A stretch of DNA of 60,102 bases from a virus. A program made the translations under genes and the position numbers. The first letter of the stretch is position 1. Each line of letters starts with the position of its first letter. The stretch covers positions 1-60,102 of the IMG/VR virus record IMGVR_UViG_3300009160_000047; one strand, given 5' to 3'. The notes below the pieces were generated by a model. The model saw nothing but the letters and a program-made list of their open reading frames with translations, did not search any database and had not been told where the DNA came from. Positions 33,855 to 46,628 of this stretch are shown here, one piece after another.

Positions 33855-34154
33855 TCAGGGTTGAACTTGGGCACTTTTGTACCCTTGTCTTTTGGATTTG
33901 GAAATGGTGGAAACGGCCATGTCATCTACGTTCTCCGGTCTAGGACAATCTTCTGGCGGCACAACCACGCACCACACAGCTGCATACTGTTTTCTCGGAA
34001 CAGCTTCCCATCTATCAATGTAGGCATCAGGCATAGCGCGTATGATCTTTTTAATGTTCGCCTTATCACGCTTCACCGCCCACACGATCTGCTCTAACGT
34101 CATTCCATCACTGTTCGTTCTGAGTAATGCTCTAATCTCTTGCGTACAGTTCAT
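33855..34154 (-). CDS. Winged-helix-like small protein
   Basis: 99 residues. The N-terminus (MNCTQEIRALLRTNSDGMTLEQIVWAVKRDKANIKKIIRAMPDAYIDRWEA) reads as a helix-turn-helix with wing (KQYAAVWCVV). A DNA-binding regulator is possible but unproven. Second gene of the minus accessory operon. Confidence 0.62.
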   Translation of the reverse strand: MNCTQEIRALLRTNSDGMTLEQIVWAVKRDKANIKKIIRAMPDAYIDRWEAVPRKQYAAVWCVVVPPEDCPRPENVDDMAVSTISKSKRQGYKSAQVQP

Positions 34155-34390
34155 TGACGTCTCATATCTTCTTTAAATACCGCCAGTGCTTCGTTCTGGA
34201 TATCACGCACAACATAGTCAGCCAGGAAGCCAATCATCTCTATGTCCTTGTGCGTTACAGAAACAAGTTCCATTGACTCAGCATAGTCTGGCTCAATCTT
34301 TAATCCATTCTCAGCAGAACCAATCTCAGCCGGCAAGTAATCCAGCGTACAGTCAAGCTCCACATCAGCTCTCGTAAATATATATCTCAT
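34151..34390 (-). CDS. Small acidic protein, first gene of accessory operon
   Basis: 79 residues from the ATG at 34390 (MRYIFTRADVELDCTLDYLPAEIGS...). The longer frame begins upstream of the likely start; GGAG 5-7 bases before this ATG supports the choice. Acidic; no motif. The promoter at 34417-34444 lies 27 bases upstream. Confidence 0.65.
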   Translation of the reverse strand: MRYIFTRADVELDCTLDYLPAEIGSAENGLKIEPDYAESMELVSVTHKDIEMIGFLADYVVRDIQNEALAVFKEDMRRQ

Positions 34391-34416: not shown

Positions 34417-34444
34417 ATATTACTGCAAAAAAGTACACTGTCAA
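34417..34444 (-). promoter_or_regulatory. Promoter of the minus accessory operon
   Basis: Minus strand TTGACA (34444-34439), 16 bases, TAATAT (34422-34417). The perfect -35 sits directly after the T-tract of the terminator at 34447-34477, so the operon is insulated from the ncRNA upstream and started anew. Confidence 0.7.
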
Positions 34445-34446
34445 CA

Positions 34447-34477
34447 GGTATAAGAAAATAAATGTAGGTGCTACATT
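34447..34477 (-). terminator. Intrinsic terminator of the ncRNA
   Basis: Minus strand AATGTAG-CAC-CTACATT (7-bp stem, 34477-34461) then TATTTTCTTAT. It marks the 3' end of the structured RNA near 34450. Confidence 0.8.
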
Positions 34478-35080
34478 CTTGGTGGACTGCTAGGCTCTGT
34501 GGACATGGTTCTGCCTAGGGGAGAGGCGTTCTCCCTTTGGCATACTTCCACATTCTCGGAGCCACTGGCTGAGTATCTTGTGGGCTGATCTTCTTCTAAG
34601 TCCAATCAGCATCGAGCACTTTGCACAACTTAGTTGTGTCTAGCATGGCCGCTCGAACCTTCGCTGTAAGCCGCAGGACTTGAACCCACGGGCAACAAAG
34701 GCAATTCCCCCATATGCGCTTGCAACTTCTTTGCGCAATTTCACAACAGATAAGAACGTCGTAGGATTGGTGGACTGCGGTCTACGCCTTGCGGCCTCCA
34801 ACGCTTCCCTCATGCCAATCCAAAACCCGATAGAGTTCTGTCGCTAGTTGTCGTAGGAGGAGAGACTGGGACTGCTCACATGTAGCAGTGTTTTTCAAAA
34901 CATTTCGTCCACTCAGGAGTTGCCGGCGCTAACCCGACAAACAATCCCAGTCTCAAAAACAAAAAAGCCGTTTACAACTGCGTCCGGTCGGAGCCTTGCT
35001 TAATATCTCTCCCCACAGAAAGCATTAAGTAAAGCGGAACGCATGTGTAAACGGCCTCAATCATTGCCTCCGACAGCAAC
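34450..35080 (-). ncRNA. Candidate large structured phage ncRNA (GOLLD/ROOL-like class)
   Basis: About 630 nt on the minus strand without a credible gene, bounded by a promoter (35116-35087) and a terminator (34477-34447). Stems seen on the minus strand: GTCGGAG/CTCCGAC (35074-35068 with 34993-34987) crosses GCCGTTTAC/GTAAACGGC (35055-35047 with 34975-34967), which would be a pseudoknot; GAGACTGGGA/TCCCAGTCTC (10 bp, 34954-34945 with 34871-34862) closes a domain with at least three inner hairpins; GGATTGG/CCAATCC (34821-34815 with 34770-34764) encloses GCC-GCAA-GGC; further hairpins CACAAC/GTTGTG (34638-34624), GCTGAT/ATCAGC, GGGAGA/TCTCCC and CTAGGC/GCCTAG. TCCTACGAC and AGTCCACCAA each occur twice. 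The size, intergenic place in a phage and lack of coding resemble known ornate RNAs GOLLD and ROOL, but no consensus match has been tested. Confidence 0.8.
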
Positions 35081-35086
35081 AACGTG

Positions 35087-35116
35087 TTTATATCACAGAA
35101 TAAATTTACCTGTCAA
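35087..35116 (-). promoter_or_regulatory. Promoter of the ncRNA with dyad
   Basis: Minus strand TTGACA (35116-35111), 18 bases, TATAAA (35092-35087). A dyad CTGTCA-ACTAGG-TGACAG (35110-35127) overlaps the -35 box, related to the half-sites at the early and late promoters. Confidence 0.75.
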
Positions 35117-35130
35117 CTAGGTGACAGTAT

Positions 35131-35167
35131 TAGGGTTTACCCACCCAAATGGTAATATTACCATTGC
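35131..35167 (-). repeat. Dispersed palindromic repeat, copy C
   Basis: Shares with copies A and B the core GCAATGGTAA...CCATT.GGGTGGGT.AACCCT. Here the first dyad is the perfect 16-base palindrome ATGGTAATATTACCAT (35149-35164). It lies between the PAPS-reductase-like stop and the ncRNA promoter. Confidence 0.85.
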
Positions 35168-35169
35168 TA

Positions 35170-35973
35170 TTAGTCCCCGCAAAAGCAGGCAATACCCTCC
35201 TCAGTGGAGGCAAACATATCCATTTGCTCCGTGGCAAATTTCATCATCTGCGAATAGCTAGGGCGATCACTACGGAATGTGCCGCCTATGGCATGCTCCT
35301 GCTTTGCCCACCACAGGGCTCGATCTGGGTTATCCCGAATGATGCTAAGCACTTGGTTGGGGCCCTTAAGAAAGCACAGGTCACAGTTGCCAAGGTTGGT
35401 AACACCAGACTGGAACTTAAGCCCCAGGTCAAATGAGTTGGCCTTCCAAAATTCTTGTACATCGAGCTGGCTAAAGTTTGCATCAATCAAGGGGGTGCGG
35501 TTACCCTGCCTAAGCTTGGCAGCTCTGCGCTTTTCATCCGCCCTGATCCCAAGCATCTGCTCAAACTCTTCTACGCCCCTAGACAACATGTATTTCTGGA
35601 TGGGAATAACCTTTAGATCAGACGTACAAAAGCGCGCAACAGGGTTGGGCAGGTAGCTACGCTTGTTAATCAGGGCTGAGAACGGCTCACCATCCCGACT
35701 GGCTGTCTCGTAGTCCACCTCTTTCCAGCGATCCTTGGTCAGTTCAGCCGGCTGATATTCAAGCCAATGGATCTTGACGTTCCAGGCCTTTGCGCAATCA
35801 TTAACGAACTTAAGTGTGGCCTCATCCTCCTTACCAGTGTTGGCAAAGCAAACAATAGCTTCCTCGGGCAAGCTCATGTCGTGAGCCTCCAAGACCTTAT
35901 AAAGCATGAAGGCGGAGGTACGGCCACCCGAAAAGGATATGACCGTGGGCTCATCTATGTGGAAGGGATTCAT
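35170..35973 (-). CDS. PAPS-reductase/adenine nucleotide hydrolase-like protein
   Basis: 267 residues. The PP-loop TVISFSGGRTSAFML (about 10-24) is typical of PAPS reductase-type and DndC-like enzymes. CDLC (about residues 198-201) and ACFCGD at the C-terminus could bind a metal or a cluster. These enzymes transfer or activate sulfur or adenylyl groups; DndC-type members act in DNA phosphorothioation, but no DndD/E or cysteine desulfurase genes are present, so a true phosphorothioate system is not supported. It follows the VRR-NUC gene across a terminator (35986-36011). Confidence 0.75.
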   Translation of the reverse strand: MNPFHIDEPTVISFSGGRTSAFMLYKVLEAHDMSLPEEAIVCFANTGKEDEATLKFVNDCAKAWNVKIHWLEYQPAELTKDRWKEVDYETASRDGEPFSALINKRSYLPNPVARFCTSDLKVIPIQKYMLSRGVEEFEQMLGIRADEKRRAAKLRQGNRTPLIDANFSQLDVQEFWKANSFDLGLKFQSGVTNLGNCDLCFLKGPNQVLSIIRDNPDRALWWAKQEHAIGGTFRSDRPSYSQMMKFATEQMDMFASTEEGIACFCGD

Positions 35974-39654: not shown

Positions 39655-39923
39655 ACAACACACTGACGGCCAAACATAGGGATCATCTAGCCAATGTAAA
39701 GTCTTTGCCTTGCTCTGTCTGTGATCAACCAGGCCCTAGTGATGCCCACCATGTAAAGCAGGGCTTGCAGTACACCTGCGTAGCCCTGTGTAAAGACTGC
39801 CATCAGGGCAGCTTCATGGGATGGCACGGCCAGAAGCGGGCGTGGGCTATTAGAAAGATGGACGAGATCGATGCACTCAACGTCACCATTGAGCGCCTCT
39901 TAAATCTGAGCCGTTTCTCTTAG
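39651..39923 (+). CDS. HNH-type zinc nuclease-like protein
   Basis: 90 residues: CSVCDQPGPSDAHHVKQ (CxxC, then HH), CKDCHQGSFMGWHGQKR. The pattern fits small phage HNH-like nucleases (Ref/DUF968/NinG-like class). They cut joints or ends in recombination. Its end overlaps the giant ejection gene on the other strand by 24 bases. Confidence 0.72.
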   Translation: MNNTLTAKHRDHLANVKSLPCSVCDQPGPSDAHHVKQGLQYTCVALCKDCHQGSFMGWHGQKRAWAIRKMDEIDALNVTIERLLNLSRFS

Positions 39924-42900
39924 CTTCTTAAGATTAATTCCCTTAAGCATCTTCTCTTCAGAGTCTCGCAACTGTTTGATGCGGGACTCTTTTACATCTG
40001 AAGGCAGATTAGAGTTGGTGATCATACTAATCGATTTACGGATCGTACTCAGCTGAGTATTGATCGTATTGACCATCGGCGCCAATCCCAAGCGGGCACG
40101 AACCTTCTCATCCTTGATGTAATCTTTGATGTCTTCAGGGTTGCGCTGCTTCAGATCTGTCAGCGTATTAGCCGCACGATCAACCTCTTCCTTCAAAGCA
40201 AAGAAGTCTTTCTTCAAGCCAGACTCATACTCTTTGGTAATAAATCCACTGGCATTAGGAATCGTGGCCAACGCATCCTGCATCGAGATCGATGGACGTG
40301 GCGTATTGGGGCTGGTGATGTTCCACAGGAAAGGGTTGGTTGCATACAACACCAAGCCACCGGCAGAGCCAAACATTCCACGAATAAAATGATCGACTGC
40401 AATCGGAGAAACTAAGTTTGATCGACCCAAGACCTTGGCCAACTCGGATGTACTATCCTCAAACTGGCGTTCCAACTCTTTCTTTTTCTGGTATGTACCA
40501 ATCAAAGGTTTCTGCTGGAAGAAGTCATAGTTAATTCCAATTTCTACCAAAGGCTTGATAGCCTGTGGGACTGGCGTAGGACTCAGAACAGAAGAGGCTA
40601 ACAAAGACTTCAATGACGCACGGAACTTGGCACCATCAGAGTAGCCCTTGTCTGTCAGGATCATGTAGGTGTGCTCAGCCACAACCTTGGGCAAGGCATA
40701 CAGATCGGCGCGCAGAGGGATAGACATACCAGTGCCAGGAATCATCAACAGACGATCACGGGTAGGCGTAGGCTTCTTCAGATAGTCCTCATCATCGCCG
40801 TTCATCATTGCGTACAGAACTGACAAGGTAAAGACCGAAGCCGTAGTGTTAAACAAAACCTTATAAGCCGCATCACGCTGGGTAGGTGATGTACCTACCC
40901 CCGTTATGGTGCGGTACGCCACATTCTGAGCCGTAAGGTATGCGTTAAAGAACGGAATTACTTGGCCGGCAAGGTTCAACATCTTGCTACTACCACGGCG
41001 GCGCACGTTAAAGATCTCGAACGCTTTCTCAAGAGCCTCTGCTTGGGATAGGCCTTGATCTCTAGCGGCGGTATAGGTAGCCTGACGCACAGCATTATCA
41101 GAAGCCATGGCAAAGTGGCCAAGCTTATCTTTAACCTTACCCCACAAACCCTTTGCCGGCTTCAAGCCTGCGGCAATCTCAGTATCAAGGCGAACCATGG
41201 CCGAACTAAAGTCACGCACACCCACAACACCAAAGTTCTTCAGCTCTTCGTGAGCCGTACTCTTGCCGCGTAAGGTCTGGATGAATTCTTTAACGGCGCG
41301 GAAAGGAATGGTTAATGCAAACTGAGGCTTTAAGCCGGATGAGAACATCGCAGCAAACGAATCCTGCGGCACCTGAGACACGGCGAATAAAGGATTCAAG
41401 ACCACGGAGTTACGCAATATGTCGGATAGCTTGGCTGCCCAACGGATGGTAGGAATGGAGACAGACTCCAAGCCCTGGAAGGCCTGCATGAACATGGGGT
41501 CAGCCATGTCATAGTAGCTCTCTTGCCCATCTTTCCAGACACGAACAACGTTATCACCGTCCTTCATGCTCTCTACTTTCTTGGCCAGTCCAACAGACTC
41601 AGCCGTAGTAGCAAGGGACAAGGCAGAACGATTGCGCACGGAACGATTGACGGCGTATTGCGTCCAACGAACCATGTTGTCAAAGATGTCGTTAACAGGC
41701 TTGGCAGATCCTTTTAGGCGGCGCTCTTTAGCCTGCACCTGCAAGCTACGCATGAACTCTTTGGGACCCTTACCCTCTTCAAGCTGATCCTCACGATAGA
41801 ATGGTACATAGTCTGCGTTGCTCAGAAGGAACTCTGCTTCCTCCTCAGTCCACAATCCAGACTCAACCAGTTTATCAACAGCGTTGCCACGGATGCCGTT
41901 CCAGATCTTCACAGCATCATTCAGCTCAGGCATCAGCTCAAACTGAGTCATGCCTCCACGGATCTGAGCGTCATCCATATGGATGTACTTTTCCTTCTGC
42001 CGCATATTGGAGGCCTTCTCGCTAAGAGCGCTGGCCTTGACGGGATTACCCTTGGCACGCTCCTCGGCGGCGGCATCACGAAGCTCTTGAACCTGAGCCT
42101 CTAATTGATTGTTGAACTCAATTAAAGACTTTGTGCGCTTAGCCTCAAAAGCCGTATGGGCGGCAAGCTCGATCTGAGCTTTGTCCAATCCATACTTGGC
42201 ACCAATCTCATCCAGCTTCTGCGACAAGGTAATGATGTTGTTCTTATCCTCAACACCCTCCCACTTGTGCAACTCTTTGTTGTACTTGATGTCGCCCATC
42301 CGCAAGAACAGATTGGCAATAGCATCAGAGTGGAACGTCTGGCTCAAACTTGTGTTCAACAATAAGCCAATCTTTTCCTCTTGACCTATCGAACTGGCCA
42401 TGATTTCACGGCGAATCTGGTTGTTCAGCGCGGCATCGCTAGAGAAAGCCCATGTCTGAATCTGATCAGAGAAGCGGCGGAATCCATCACGGGCAGCTTC
42501 AGCCGTAGCCTTTGGATTGTCCTTAGCGTTATCCCATGACTGCTTAATCTTCTCTGCATAACCTGGCTCTGGTGGCTTAACGTCACGACCCATACCGGAG
42601 AGAATCTCCATGGCCTGCTGACCCACAGAAGTTGGGGTACCAGCCCCCTTGAATAAAGACTGTTGGAATGGCGCTTGAGGTTTAGATGGTTTGGCCGGAG
42701 CTTTAGGCTTAGGTGCTCCTAGTTGAACACCTTGCGCCTTCATGGCCGTATCAATATCTTTAACATCAATGTCAAGAATTTCATTGGTAGTCTTCATCAG
42801 ACGATCAAGCGCAGACTCAAACTCTGGACTGATACCAAGCATTCTGCGAACAACTTCTACAATCTTGTCGAATGCAGTCTTATCGCCAACCTTAATCGTA

Positions 42901-45900
42901 GACAGCCACTTTTGGAAGTCTCTATCTTCTAAGCCCCAAGCCAACAACTCATCTGGGCTTTCAAGGTTGTTTGTTTGATCCTTGTAGACCTTCATCATGG
43001 ACTCAGGCAAAGTCTTGTTTTTAACTTGCTTGTTAAATTCAGCAACAACAGTTCTAAAAAGACTGTTAAGTTCTTTGACCGCAGGATGTGTGGCTGGCAG
43101 AAAATGGTTCTGCAAACGTGTTGCCGTATGCATGAACTCATGCAGCACAGTCTCATAATTCATGCCCGATGGGTAGCCTAGCTGATTGTCTAAAACAGGT
43201 ACACCATTCAGATCAATCCTGATTTGCGTACCCTTGGCATCTTTACCCGCTAAAAATGAAGCAACGCCTTGAGCTCTATAAAGTTTTTTGCTACGACTAT
43301 CGCCGCCTTGAACTTCAAATGTAAATTCAACGCCTTGCTTCTCAAGAGCCCGAACAACATTCAAAGCCTTCTGAGCAAAGTATTTCTCCGCATCATTGCG
43401 AGCGTTTCTGACAGTCCACTGACCCATCTCTATAAATGACTTACCAGTAAGCTCATCTTGAATGCGCCGCGCCTCAGGGGTCACGACAATATTTGATGGG
43501 CCCTTGTTGGCTGAGTAAAGAAACTCTTCCCTTGGGGCAAACTCAACATTCTTAGCCAACACAAAGCGGCCTATCTGAATGGCGTCGTCGGCGGCTACCA
43601 CGGGCCGCTTGGTTGCTCGGTCATAGAAGTATGAATGACGCAACGGATCAAAGCTAACCTGTGACCATGACTTATCTTTCAATAAGCGCTGAACCATTGC
43701 ATATGCTTCTTTAGGTGTAATGTTGACCCAGTTACCTTCCATCGTTTGCTGGGGTGATTTGTTACCTTGGGGCGTTACATTGCCTTCCTTGCTAATCGTC
43801 GGCTCAGCCTGAGTGGCCACCTTCATGGCAGCCTTTTCATTACGGATAGAAAACTTTACATTCTGTATACGGGCAACACTGGAATAACTGATGGGTGATT
43901 TAGGATTATTTTCTGGATGGATGGCAACAACACTGCCCGTCATGCCAAGAGCTTTAGAACGGTCAAGCGCTTTAATATCCATACGCAAACCAACCGGCGT
44001 ACCATCAGCAATTGGCGCATTTATTTTAGGTAGCTGGTTAGACTGCAGCACTTCCTTCATGTCAGCCGTAGCCATGGGTGGCTCAGGGTTTGGAATCGTT
44101 TCAATAGGCATGTAAGCATCTACATACTCATCATATTGTTTTTTGGTAATACGGCCCGCTTGTAATTCACGGGCAGCCAACACAACTTGTTGATTGCGGT
44201 TTTCTTTTAGTTTAAAGCCTTCTGGAGGCTTAAGCTCAGGCGGAGCTTTGCTCCCTGCTGGTTTGGCAGTCGTTTCGGCAGGTGTCTGCTTTTGAGGCTT
44301 CTCTTCTTTTACTTCTTTTGTTCCCGCTGTCTCTTTACCTCCTCCAGCAGTTCCAGTCTCTCCTTCGGTGGAAGTTTCTCCAGCAGCTTGATCAATTCTT
44401 GCTTGTTCATCTATAGCCTCCTGTATCAGAATGTTAATTTCTTCGGTAGACAAATATCTATCAATAAGTCTCAGCACCTCATCATGTCGCAAGTTGGCCT
44501 GCTGAATAATCTGCTGACTCTGGAACGGCATGTTCTGGTTCGTGCGCAACAAATTACGGATGTACTCAGTTGCTTGGTACTCCCTATCTGAAGCGCCCAC
44601 CGCATCTTCTCTCGCACTAATTTGAGCACCAAGATGAAGATTAGGGGGTAGGAATTCATTAAGCAAGCCATCGGCAACAATGTCGTCTAAGCTGGCACCA
44701 CCAGTATTGCTGATCAGCTTCTTGTCTGCATCACTGTCCTTATCGCCAAACTCGGATAGCTCAGCCGGATCAAGACGGCCAGCCAAGATCCTGCGCAGGT
44801 TCGTACCGCTACGCTTTGCATGGAAGATCTGACTGCGGATCTCTTTCTCTTGTTCTTTAAGAGCTTTAATAGTTGCGCGGTCTTCTTCTTTAGTCTCTTG
44901 ATCTATTGGAGCCTTAGCCTTCTGACCAGGAATATTCTCATACGCCACAGGGCCAGGTGGGGGCTCTAAGTCCTCCTCAACTGGAGGTACTTCTTCTTCA
45001 GTTTTGGCTTCTTGCTTAACAGCCTCAACCAATCCCTCTTGCTCCAAAATCTTACGCTTGGCAAGTTCATTGGCCAAAGGGTCTGGACTATAGACAGTGT
45101 TTTGAATCTCTTTGATACGCTTTTTCTTAGCCGTCTCTGCCGCCTTAATCTCATCAGCCTGACGCTTACGAGTGGCACCAAGCATTTCCTGATTGGTTGT
45201 GGCAGGACTTGCAAAGCCAGCCATCTTACTCATAGCAGTAGGCTTAGCAGGCGTGATCTCAGCCGGCGCCTCTTCAATAACCTGTGGTTGTTGCTCAGCA
45301 AACTGATCCAGCAGGCGCTGCTTCATAATCTGATTGGCAACAGGATCATTGCTGTAGACAGTATTATTGATCTCTTTGATCTGATCTTGGATCTGCTTTT
45401 GGCGAGCTTTCTCAGCCGCAGCCTGTTCACGTTGTTGCTGTTTAACGGCGGCTTGCTGATCGGCACGAACCTGACCCATCATCTGCAAGTTACCACCGGC
45501 AGGCGTAGCAAAGCCCTGCATAGAGCGAGCACGCTCCTGAGCATCAGCCATGCGTTGCTCTTCTGCCATCTGCTGCGCCAAGCGTCTTTGCTCATCGGCT
45601 TGGATCGCTTCTTCTCTCATCGCCAAAGCACGATTAGCATCCATCCCTTGCGGAGGTGCTGAAAAAATAGGCAATGGTAATGTTTCCATTGGGGTGGGTA
45701 AACCCTTAGATTCATCGATTGGTTGTGGTATCGCAGGCTTACCAGCTAAACCTCTAGCCGCAGCACCACCAAGACCGCCAATTGTTGCGGCACCAGCAAA
45801 TGCTTCTTTGTATTCTCTATAAGCATCTTCCGTATCAAGCGGTAAGCCGGCCTGATAGCGCTCAGCCATCTGCTCCAAAACCTCGGTAGGAGCTTCAGCA

Positions 45901-46628
45901 ATAACACCCAAAGTAGCACCAGTCGTAATTCGACCTGGCAACGATTGACCAGTACGCTTGGCCAACTCAGCTAACGCTTCACTGCCAAGAATCTTATTGG
46001 GGAACTTGCCCAATCCTGTAAGAAACTTATCAGCAAAGAAACCAATAGGAGCCGTGGCCGCAGCTACAGCCGCCGCTTTTCCTGGTGCTAACGTCTCACC
46101 GGTAGCGCCCTCTGTAGCTTGACGGCGCATGAACTGGCCAAACTGTTGGGTGCCATATGTACCAATACCAGCAAGCAAACCACCTAGTGGCGATGTGAAT
46201 GGGGTTACAGCAGCCGCAGCGGCCAGTGGCACAGCCATGCTTGGGGCATTCGAAAGGATCTGCTCGGAGATATAAGACGGTAGCTTCTTCAGGACTTCAA
46301 TAGCCCCGTCTTTGCCGTAAGTCTTTTCTAGCTCTTCGTAAGTGATGGCTTGAATAGGCTTTTGCTGTTGCTCTTGCGCACGAATGGCTGCGGCTTGGCG
46401 GCCTGCCTCTTCCTTCTGACCCAGAGCGGCTCGGCCACCCAACTCAATACCGGCCAAGCTTTCGGGGATCTGTTCTAAGCCAGTCTGTAAAGCCTGCTTG
46501 GAGCGCTCCATAAAACCTGGCGCTGGCTTCTTAAGAATGTCGGTTTCAATTGCATTGATGATGTCCTCTTGGGACATGCTGTCAGGAAAGTTAACCTGAC
46601 CAACACCCGGCACATTGACAATAGGCAT
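39900..46628 (-). CDS. Giant polyvalent ejection protein (2242 residues) with HExxH and LPD38-like domain
   Basis: Begins MPIVNVPGVGQVNFPDSMSQEDI, an opening common in internal virion proteins. The next 750 residues are charged coiled coil with Gln/Ala-rich parts. HEFMH at 1163-1167 is an HExxH metallopeptidase motif in YETVLHEFMHTATRLQ. About residues 1580-2000 include LNPLFAVSQVPQDSFAAMF, NVRRRGSSKMLNLAGQVIPFFNAYLTAQN and a hydrophobic run LFNTTASVFTLSVLYAMMNGDD, the pattern of large polyvalent protein-associated domain 38. It probably enters the host with the DNA, carrying protease and membrane parts. Confidence 0.78.
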   Translation of the reverse strand: MPIVNVPGVGQVNFPDSMSQEDIINAIETDILKKPAPGFMERSKQALQTGLEQIPESLAGIELGGRAALGQKEEAGRQAAAIRAQEQQQKPIQAITYEELEKTYGKDGAIEVLKKLPSYISEQILSNAPSMAVPLAAAAAVTPFTSPLGGLLAGIGTYGTQQFGQFMRRQATEGATGETLAPGKAAAVAAATAPIGFFADKFLTGLGKFPNKILGSEALAELAKRTGQSLPGRITTGATLGVIAEAPTEVLEQMAERYQAGLPLDTEDAYREYKEAFAGAATIGGLGGAAARGLAGKPAIPQPIDESKGLPTPMETLPLPIFSAPPQGMDANRALAMREEAIQADEQRRLAQQMAEEQRMADAQERARSMQGFATPAGGNLQMMGQVRADQQAAVKQQQREQAAAEKARQKQIQDQIKEINNTVYSNDPVANQIMKQRLLDQFAEQQPQVIEEAPAEITPAKPTAMSKMAGFASPATTNQEMLGATRKRQADEIKAAETAKKKRIKEIQNTVYSPDPLANELAKRKILEQEGLVEAVKQEAKTEEEVPPVEEDLEPPPGPVAYENIPGQKAKAPIDQETKEEDRATIKALKEQEKEIRSQIFHAKRSGTNLRRILAGRLDPAELSEFGDKDSDADKKLISNTGGASLDDIVADGLLNEFLPPNLHLGAQISAREDAVGASDREYQATEYIRNLLRTNQNMPFQSQQIIQQANLRHDEVLRLIDRYLSTEEINILIQEAIDEQARIDQAAGETSTEGETGTAGGGKETAGTKEVKEEKPQKQTPAETTAKPAGSKAPPELKPPEGFKLKENRNQQVVLAARELQAGRITKKQYDEYVDAYMPIETIPNPEPPMATADMKEVLQSNQLPKINAPIADGTPVGLRMDIKALDRSKALGMTGSVVAIHPENNPKSPISYSSVARIQNVKFSIRNEKAAMKVATQAEPTISKEGNVTPQGNKSPQQTMEGNWVNITPKEAYAMVQRLLKDKSWSQVSFDPLRHSYFYDRATKRPVVAADDAIQIGRFVLAKNVEFAPREEFLYSANKGPSNIVVTPEARRIQDELTGKSFIEMGQWTVRNARNDAEKYFAQKALNVVRALEKQGVEFTFEVQGGDSRSKKLYRAQGVASFLAGKDAKGTQIRIDLNGVPVLDNQLGYPSGMNYETVLHEFMHTATRLQNHFLPATHPAVKELNSLFRTVVAEFNKQVKNKTLPESMMKVYKDQTNNLESPDELLAWGLEDRDFQKWLSTIKVGDKTAFDKIVEVVRRMLGISPEFESALDRLMKTTNEILDIDVKDIDTAMKAQGVQLGAPKPKAPAKPSKPQAPFQQSLFKGAGTPTSVGQQAMEILSGMGRDVKPPEPGYAEKIKQSWDNAKDNPKATAEAARDGFRRFSDQIQTWAFSSDAALNNQIRREIMASSIGQEEKIGLLLNTSLSQTFHSDAIANLFLRMGDIKYNKELHKWEGVEDKNNIITLSQKLDEIGAKYGLDKAQIELAAHTAFEAKRTKSLIEFNNQLEAQVQELRDAAAEERAKGNPVKASALSEKASNMRQKEKYIHMDDAQIRGGMTQFELMPELNDAVKIWNGIRGNAVDKLVESGLWTEEEAEFLLSNADYVPFYREDQLEEGKGPKEFMRSLQVQAKERRLKGSAKPVNDIFDNMVRWTQYAVNRSVRNRSALSLATTAESVGLAKKVESMKDGDNVVRVWKDGQESYYDMADPMFMQAFQGLESVSIPTIRWAAKLSDILRNSVVLNPLFAVSQVPQDSFAAMFSSGLKPQFALTIPFRAVKEFIQTLRGKSTAHEELKNFGVVGVRDFSSAMVRLDTEIAAGLKPAKGLWGKVKDKLGHFAMASDNAVRQATYTAARDQGLSQAEALEKAFEIFNVRRRGSSKMLNLAGQVIPFFNAYLTAQNVAYRTITGVGTSPTQRDAAYKVLFNTTASVFTLSVLYAMMNGDDEDYLKKPTPTRDRLLMIPGTGMSIPLRADLYALPKVVAEHTYMILTDKGYSDGAKFRASLKSLLASSVLSPTPVPQAIKPLVEIGINYDFFQQKPLIGTYQKKKELERQFEDSTSELAKVLGRSNLVSPIAVDHFIRGMFGSAGGLVLYATNPFLWNITSPNTPRPSISMQDALATIPNASGFITKEYESGLKKDFFALKEEVDRAANTLTDLKQRNPEDIKDYIKDEKVRARLGLAPMVNTINTQLSTIRKSISMITNSNLPSDVKESRIKQLRDSEEKMLKGINLKKLRETAQI
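45671..45708 (+). repeat. Dispersed palindromic repeat, copy B (inside the ejection gene)
   Basis: Shares with copies A and C the sequence GCAATGGTAA, CCATTGGGGTGGGT and AACCCT. It lies in the coding region of the giant protein at about residues 307-320, an in-frame part of GLPTPMETLPLP. The first dyad is imperfect (TG in the loop, one mismatch). See findings. Confidence 0.8.

Follow-up and report, generated by a model that had tools for sequence, protein, structure and literature searches.

A new modular family of large structured phage RNAs with a covarying kissing module and a variable self-repeat at the 3′ boundary

What does a phage encode in several hundred nucleotides that hold no credible gene? 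This question is raised by the IMG/VR record IMGVR_UViG_3300009160_000047, a phage from an environmental sample, of which we analyzed positions 1 to 60,102 (hereafter the window, 60,102 nt). Between two minus-strand open reading frames (ORFs), at 34151-34390 and 35170-35973, lies a gap for which an initial annotation had proposed a large structured RNA with its own promoter and terminator, akin to GOLLD or ROOL or possibly a new family. Very large structured RNA classes in bacteria and phages are few, and most have no assigned function. We are all but certain that the gap encodes a promoter-driven structured phage RNA of ~630 nt, on the minus strand, which belongs to a new modular family with one 5′ module (K) per record, an optional D2 element, and one of several bodies with a CACCA-type boundary.

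Results

The window encodes a large structured RNA

The structured-RNA region spans positions 34455-35116 of the minus strand, and the stretch is gene-free, as had been claimed. It folds with a z score of −3.98, compared to −2.96 for the plus strand, with 0/20 shuffles as good on either strand. We rejected a plus-strand RNA since its fold is weaker, the adjoining genes are on the minus strand, and the relatives described below align on the minus strand. The predicted sigma70 promoter is present (Table 1), and its −10 box is kept in relatives; a simple promoter scanner overlooked it because it requires a final T in the −10 box. All the motifs named by the initial annotation are found, and all on the minus strand: the GNRA hairpin GCC-GCAA-GGC, the duplicated TCCTACGAC and AGTCCACCAA, and the pseudoknot exactly as proposed, in which GTCGGAG and CTCCGAC pair across the stem GCCGTTTAC/GTAAACGGC (35047-35055/34967-34975). 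The proposed terminator fared less well. The element that most clearly resembles a terminator (9-bp stem, then U6) does exist, but its position is internal, at the end of K (34961-34975), and the 3′ end of the RNA has only an A+T-rich hairpin, which was not detected in a terminator scan whose sole match is on the plus strand.

The RNA consists of separable modules

Using the PAPS-reductase neighbor protein as a scan query, we obtained 80 phage loci (these and the loci from the later scans are numbered L below). When the RNA was compared to them by blastn, weak matches in several loci delineated three separable modules, K, D2, and D3. The promoter and K directly precede D3 in most D3 loci, with D2 in between only in the clade of the query RNA and in L233. 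A K or K-D2 leader also occurs with other bodies, whose classes were drawn by eye and blastn, without models: B-B (L070, L145, and L141), B-C (L116, L147, L181, and L190), B-D (L168, L158, L146, and L009), and B-E (L153, L034, L089, and L042), while in L131 and L161 the body is a relative of D3. There is one sense-strand K per record (in all 16 full viral records with a match, out of 20), K stands alone directly before genes in L040, L043, L011, L044, and L081, and it occurs in two of the metagenome-assembled genomes (MAGs). Homologs display covarying stems in K, D2, and D3 alike.

Among isolated phages, matches were short and confined to two records from Manatee Spring, L217 (MW202426.1) and L216 (MW202484.1). 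Both contain K, and L217 also contains D3; predicted "hypothetical proteins" (UOF76796, UOF76797, and UOF77725) overlie or adjoin these elements and may be misannotations of the RNA.

The kissing pair of K is hypervariable and stays complementary

K forms a 5′ hairpin (H1) and a long terminator-like hairpin (H2), whose loops kiss. In an alignment of 31 sequences (A2), 94.5% of the cells are paired and double-sided changes occur in 27 of 38 pairs (0/500 shuffles), with a covariation score of 0.443 versus 0.214 when shuffled and 0.08-0.10 when slid. A run of 4-8 U directly follows the H2 stem in all 31 sequences. Kissing cells are paired in 217/217 cases, and six of the seven kissing pairs exhibit compensatory changes. 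Since this set had been picked partly on kissing complementarity, we built a covariance model (CM) blind to the kiss to locate K. For 34 of its hits outside the training set, some of which had already been met by an earlier descriptor (the kiss being unused by the model), the kissing match is 7.35 nt within the same locus versus 4.71 ± 0.24 nt when cross-paired. Even among the closest relatives of the query the kissing sequence varies, since it is GTCGGAG in the query, L229, and L254, CGTCGTAGC in L244, GTAGGAA in L247, GTAGTGA in L248, and GTTGCGA in L256. These findings indicate that the kissing sequence of K is hypervariable, yet its complementarity is kept.

The D3 body carries a variable word that is repeated at its 3′ boundary

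A pattern scan of IMG/VR for D3 gave 52 loci, and 53 were kept when loci already in the set were included; this set includes a few near copies, with 31 left at <90% identity. Three core-pattern hits (L083, L085, and L086) were discarded as coding-like and without further similarity to D3. Of the 53 pairs predicted by RNAalifold, 34 display compensatory changes. The piece that had been noted to resemble a tRNA T-arm outside any complete tRNA is an ordinary variable D3 hairpin, and ARAGORN detects no tRNA or tmRNA in the window. In L225, L230, and L258, a shortened D3 subdomain reads GAGGAAAGUCCG, resembling an RNase P signature. These RNase P-like letters (GAGGAAAGUCC) were rejected as a family assignment since L225, the one of the three that was searched, has no Rfam match.

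Inside D3 there is a variable word of 6-11 nt (V), an exact copy of which (V′) is found mostly 75-79 nt further on, just past the CACCA boundary; conserved CNCC letters precede both. The mean common word of V and V′ is 6.69 nt, compared to 4.47 ± 0.21 nt when flanks are swapped between loci, with a maximum of 5.17 nt in 500 shuffles. When the region from −250 to +60 around D3 was scanned for recurring 6-mers, both direct repeats and complements, V=V′ is the top excess (25 of 30 loci versus 1.6 expected), the best helix signal being 21 versus 1.8. Of 23 loci tested, 22 have precisely two copies of the V word within 800 nt, spaced by 66-80 nt, and 21 have no complement of it within the same range. 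Nor does the complement have a constant place, which was also searched by alignment column. The identity holds without a gene immediately after (in the query, L014, L220, L233, and L246) and, in the same slot, in other bodies (L153, L089, L034, L131, L168, L158, and L070, covering B-B, B-D, B-E, and L131); in L042 the word is 10 nt long. L148 and L242 have the same HNH gene downstream but different V, and V′ has followed V in each, so this pair is evolving in place. We know of no described RNA class with such a self-repeat, and our search of the literature gave no description of an RNA with this repeat or organization.

The RNA belongs to a new family

Membership in GOLLD or ROOL was not supported. 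No family in Rfam 15, which includes both, matches the RNA in the window or the homologs searched. The GOLLD and ROOL models match nothing in the window at E values up to 10 or in D3 homologs at E values up to 1, and six weak Rfam hits in the window are subthreshold, belong to other families, and lie outside the RNA. Group I/II introns and isrK/c4 were rejected for want of an Rfam match, as were tRNA and tmRNA by ARAGORN. There is no Rfam match and no tRNA nearby, and the organization, with interchangeable bodies behind a conserved 5′ kissing-loop module and a self-repeated segment at their end, is unlike either class. As far as its sequence tells, the RNA is thus neither GOLLD nor ROOL and represents a new family absent from Rfam 15, an outcome that the initial annotation had allowed for. 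Separately, the Rfam int-alpA RNA (RF02996) occurs at L081:2054-2122 and L123:588-655.

Small HNH genes often follow the RNA

A gene for a small HNH protein directly follows D3 in 14 of the 53 loci: 12 were identified by a positional family search, and L096 and L227, whose reading frames lie beyond its position limits, were added separately. The proteins are 112-187 residues long, their Pfam matches are to HNH families only, and all eight tested match PF01844 (E from 2e-8 to 6e-12). The 2.48 Mb of fetched sequence contains 17 HNH-family hits, three of which are outside the D3 set (L081, L161, and L042) and follow K or K-body units; this count is biased since the loci were fetched for these RNAs or their neighbors. 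The position of the HNH genes right at the end of the RNA is not explained by this bias. No empty site lacking D3 was found, 8/8 relatives of the downstream gene being on D3-bearing contigs. In many D3 loci an ORF starts 10-26 nt past CACCA, the distance being 10-14 nt in the listed HNH cases. The RNA bodies of L145 and L183 differ but lie ahead of the same tiny ORF (MAKTQH and MAKIQH, then a stop) and, in L145, of a hairpin with a T-run, like a leader-peptide attenuator.

D2 is widespread

A pattern scan of IMG/VR detected D2 in at least 120 stretches, and this is a widespread phage RNA element. Its hairpins are GUUAGCG and UGCUNNAU. The outer stem is 8.61 nt versus 5.14 nt when cross-paired, the inner pair is complementary in 109/109 cases (98 AT, 9 GC, and 2 TA), and the hairpin flanks are paired at 0.93 versus 0.54. 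Genome contigs with D2 come from Comamonas, Pseudorhodoferax, Bordetella trematum, other beta-proteobacterial MAGs, and Vreelandella. Two contigs from rumen MAGs that bear Gram-positive names have the same sequence as Vreelandella and look like contaminants or misbinned DNA. In many phages (L087, L091-L095, L102, L114, and others) D2 occurs alone, often a short way downstream of a promoter, or immediately ahead of a start codon, and it would then be a 5′ leader element in its own right, so far undescribed. L014 (8880-9560), L103, L122, L138, and L209 contain arrays in which structured units of the CATGGGGATTG...CAGTCCCCAGCCGTGTTGG type alternate, together with one or two copies of D2, which suggests RNAs much longer than 1 kb.

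Other features of the window

The coordinates of the features are given in Table 1. Just upstream of the K promoter lies a perfect 18-bp palindrome, AATGGTAATATTACCATT (35148-35165), which could be an operator for a phage repressor; the 36-bp stretch that holds it (~35132-35167) recurs at 45671-45706 with 92% identity. Elsewhere on the minus strand, positions 39900-46628 form one ORF of 2242 residues.

Table 1. Features of the RNA and its immediate surroundings in the window
Feature	Position	Strand	Evidence
Promoter, sigma70-type, TTGACA-18 nt-TATAAA	35087..35116	(-)	Sequence; −10 boxes of relatives equally far from H1
K module, 5′ domain: hairpin H1, loop-loop kiss, long hairpin H2, U-run	34956..35086	(-)	Alignment A2; CM R1, 111 bits
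H1 hairpin; kissing loop GUCGGAG at 35068-35074	35063..35080	(-)	Alignment, covariation, sequence
H2 terminator-like hairpin (GCCGUUUAC / GUAAACGGC), U6 directly after	34961..35055	(-)	Alignment, covariation, sequence
Kissing partner CUCCGAC within H2 loop	34987..34993	(-)	Covariation
D2: long stem around hairpin with loop GUUAGCG, and hairpin CAC-UGCUACAU-GUG	34862..34954	(-)	IMG/VR pattern scan, covariation
D3 body, ~370 nt, 3′ boundary CACCA	34480..34845	(-)	53 homologous loci; alignment A1 of 30
D3 helix P1, 5′ strand; partner 34742-34750	34837..34845	(-)	Covariation
D3 helix P2, 5′ strand GGAUUGG; partner CCAAUCC 34764-34770	34815..34821	(-)	Covariation
T-arm-like hairpin; loop variable in relatives, no tRNA part	34671..34691	(-)	Alignment, ARAGORN
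V: variable segment AGAAUGU, after GGCUCC inside D3	34550..34556	(-)	Repeat analysis, sequence
V′: exact V copy just past the 3′ CACCA boundary	34473..34479	(-)	Repeat analysis, sequence
3′ hairpin AAUGUAG-CAC-CUACAUU, then A+T-rich tail; possible weak terminator	34461..34477	(-)	Sequence
Promoter-like site for the next gene (34151-34390)	34417..34444	(-)	Scan

Discussion

How might this RNA work? We tentatively propose, as something possible rather than probable, that K acts as a gate and that V pairs with the template DNA at V′, by which the long RNA would act on the site of its own 3′ boundary. K would fold first, and the kiss between H1 and H2, together with the terminator-like hairpin and its U-run, would form a promoter-proximal gate at which much transcription would stop after ~125 nt, the long RNA arising only by read-through. 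The long RNA would then act at that boundary, the start of the downstream gene (often that of a small HNH nuclease), with V as a short guide that would pair with DNA at V′ in an R-loop similar to that of ColE1 RNA II, and so mark or control the site. The template DNA strand at V′, or an antisense transcript, is the presumed partner because V equals V′ and has no consistent complement in the RNA. Such pairing is favored because it would need joint change at two sites only, compared to three sites if the partner were a further, unlinked RNA. Several points weigh against this proposal: termination at K is predicted from sequence alone, a V of 6-11 nt is short for stable DNA pairing, no GC-skew switch was found as a sign of an origin, V′ overlaps the ribosome-binding region in many loci, which makes translation control possible, and K and V belong to separate modules, so that a single joint mechanism is not required. 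In its strongest form, which we consider unlikely, the proposal would make this a self-referential RNA acting on DNA, with a guide of 6-11 nt that lies within it, varies freely, and has its sole built-in complement in the template DNA at the 3′ boundary of the same RNA, sometimes in the company of a small HNH nuclease. If true, phages would have an RNA-guided means of acting on DNA that has no relation to CRISPR, OMEGA, bridge RNAs, or mobile introns.

The overlap of V′ with ribosome-binding regions also fits a cis-acting leader that would control translation or transcription of only the first downstream gene, whose fold would expose or hide the V′ region while V, as a mimic or decoy, would bind the same factor. 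The short distance from CACCA to the next ORF and the lone K modules directly before genes in other phages agree with such a leader. However, V=V′ is kept where no gene follows immediately, the match extends past the Shine-Dalgarno-like letters, V′ is not always purine-rich (CTGATA and TCGGTGG, for example), and no consistent complement of V was found within the RNA, which together make us doubt this explanation, if not strongly. That HNH genes sit right at the end of D3, that the three others follow K or K-body units, and that all eight tested proteins are HNH by Pfam would suit an RNA-guided DNA-acting element, OMEGA/HEARO-like and sequence-unrelated, in which V guides the adjoining nuclease. 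We find this distinctly unlikely, since most loci, including the query, have no HNH gene beside D3, phages commonly carry HNH genes that stand on their own and could be hitchhikers, no empty site was found, and the choice of loci biases the count.

The size, ornate structure, phage origin, and kissing loops of the RNA recall a trans-acting RNA-only assembly, such as a cage of many copies, in which the kissing module would hold the parts together: ROOL assembles via kissing contacts and GOLLD, too, forms a cage (Kretsch et al. 2025, PMC12286853). No CM match and no tRNAs nearby support this kinship, the two kissing partners lie within one module at a spacing short enough to fit intramolecular pairing, and a cage would leave V=V′ unexplained; we consider this explanation very unlikely. 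The last alternative, to which we give very little credence, is a self-processing or splicing RNA of a new kind, with V and V′ as two equivalent sites between which a ~77-nt piece would be removed. The nearly constant spacing of V and V′, the CNCC letters before both, and HNH neighbors recalling intron-borne nucleases speak for it. Yet group I/II introns have no match in Rfam, V has no complement that could be an internal guide, and K has its own promoter, so there is no interrupted gene.

The family occurs in many environmental phages, and some of its modules are also found in genomes of Burkholderiales and other Pseudomonadota. Its two coevolving pairs, the kissing pair of K and the identical V and V′, offer experimental handles.

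Among known systems, GOLLD is often near tRNA genes and forms a 14-mer cage. The RNA family described here resembles it in being large, ornate, phage-encoded, made of a conserved and a less conserved part, and without assigned function, but differs in having no CM match, no tRNAs nearby, a constant part that is the 5′ module, and the V=V′ self-repeat. With ROOL it shares a similar length, pseudoknots, and phage origin, whereas it has no CM match, another secondary structure, and no tRNA island. Phage RNAs of the c4/P4 type combine a short terminated form with a long read-through form. The same pattern is described for IsrK (PMC4825925), with a short RNA terminated near the promoter, a longer read-through transcript, and RNA-RNA pairing in the leader. 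The promoter-proximal terminator-like hairpin and U-run of K would give comparable isoforms; in contrast, there is no sequence match to isrK/c4, the structured body is long, and the hypervariable kissing pair lies within one module. HK022 put RNAs are likewise promoter-proximal phage RNA hairpins, but put has two sites per genome, whereas here there is one K per record and K ends in a U-run. HEARO/OMEGA RNAs (of IscB and IsrB) are structured RNAs beside an HNH gene, part of which matches the flanking DNA; here there is no CM match, the proteins match only HNH families in Pfam rather than a RuvC/HNH effector, and the guide-like segment is internal. ColE1 RNA II, finally, is a structured RNA of ~550 nt with a fixed promoter, an internal segment of which pairs with template DNA near its 3′ boundary. 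The RNA described here has no homology to it and no shown origin, and its V is variable and coevolves with V′, but by analogy the identity of V and V′ would fit just such template pairing near the 3′ boundary.
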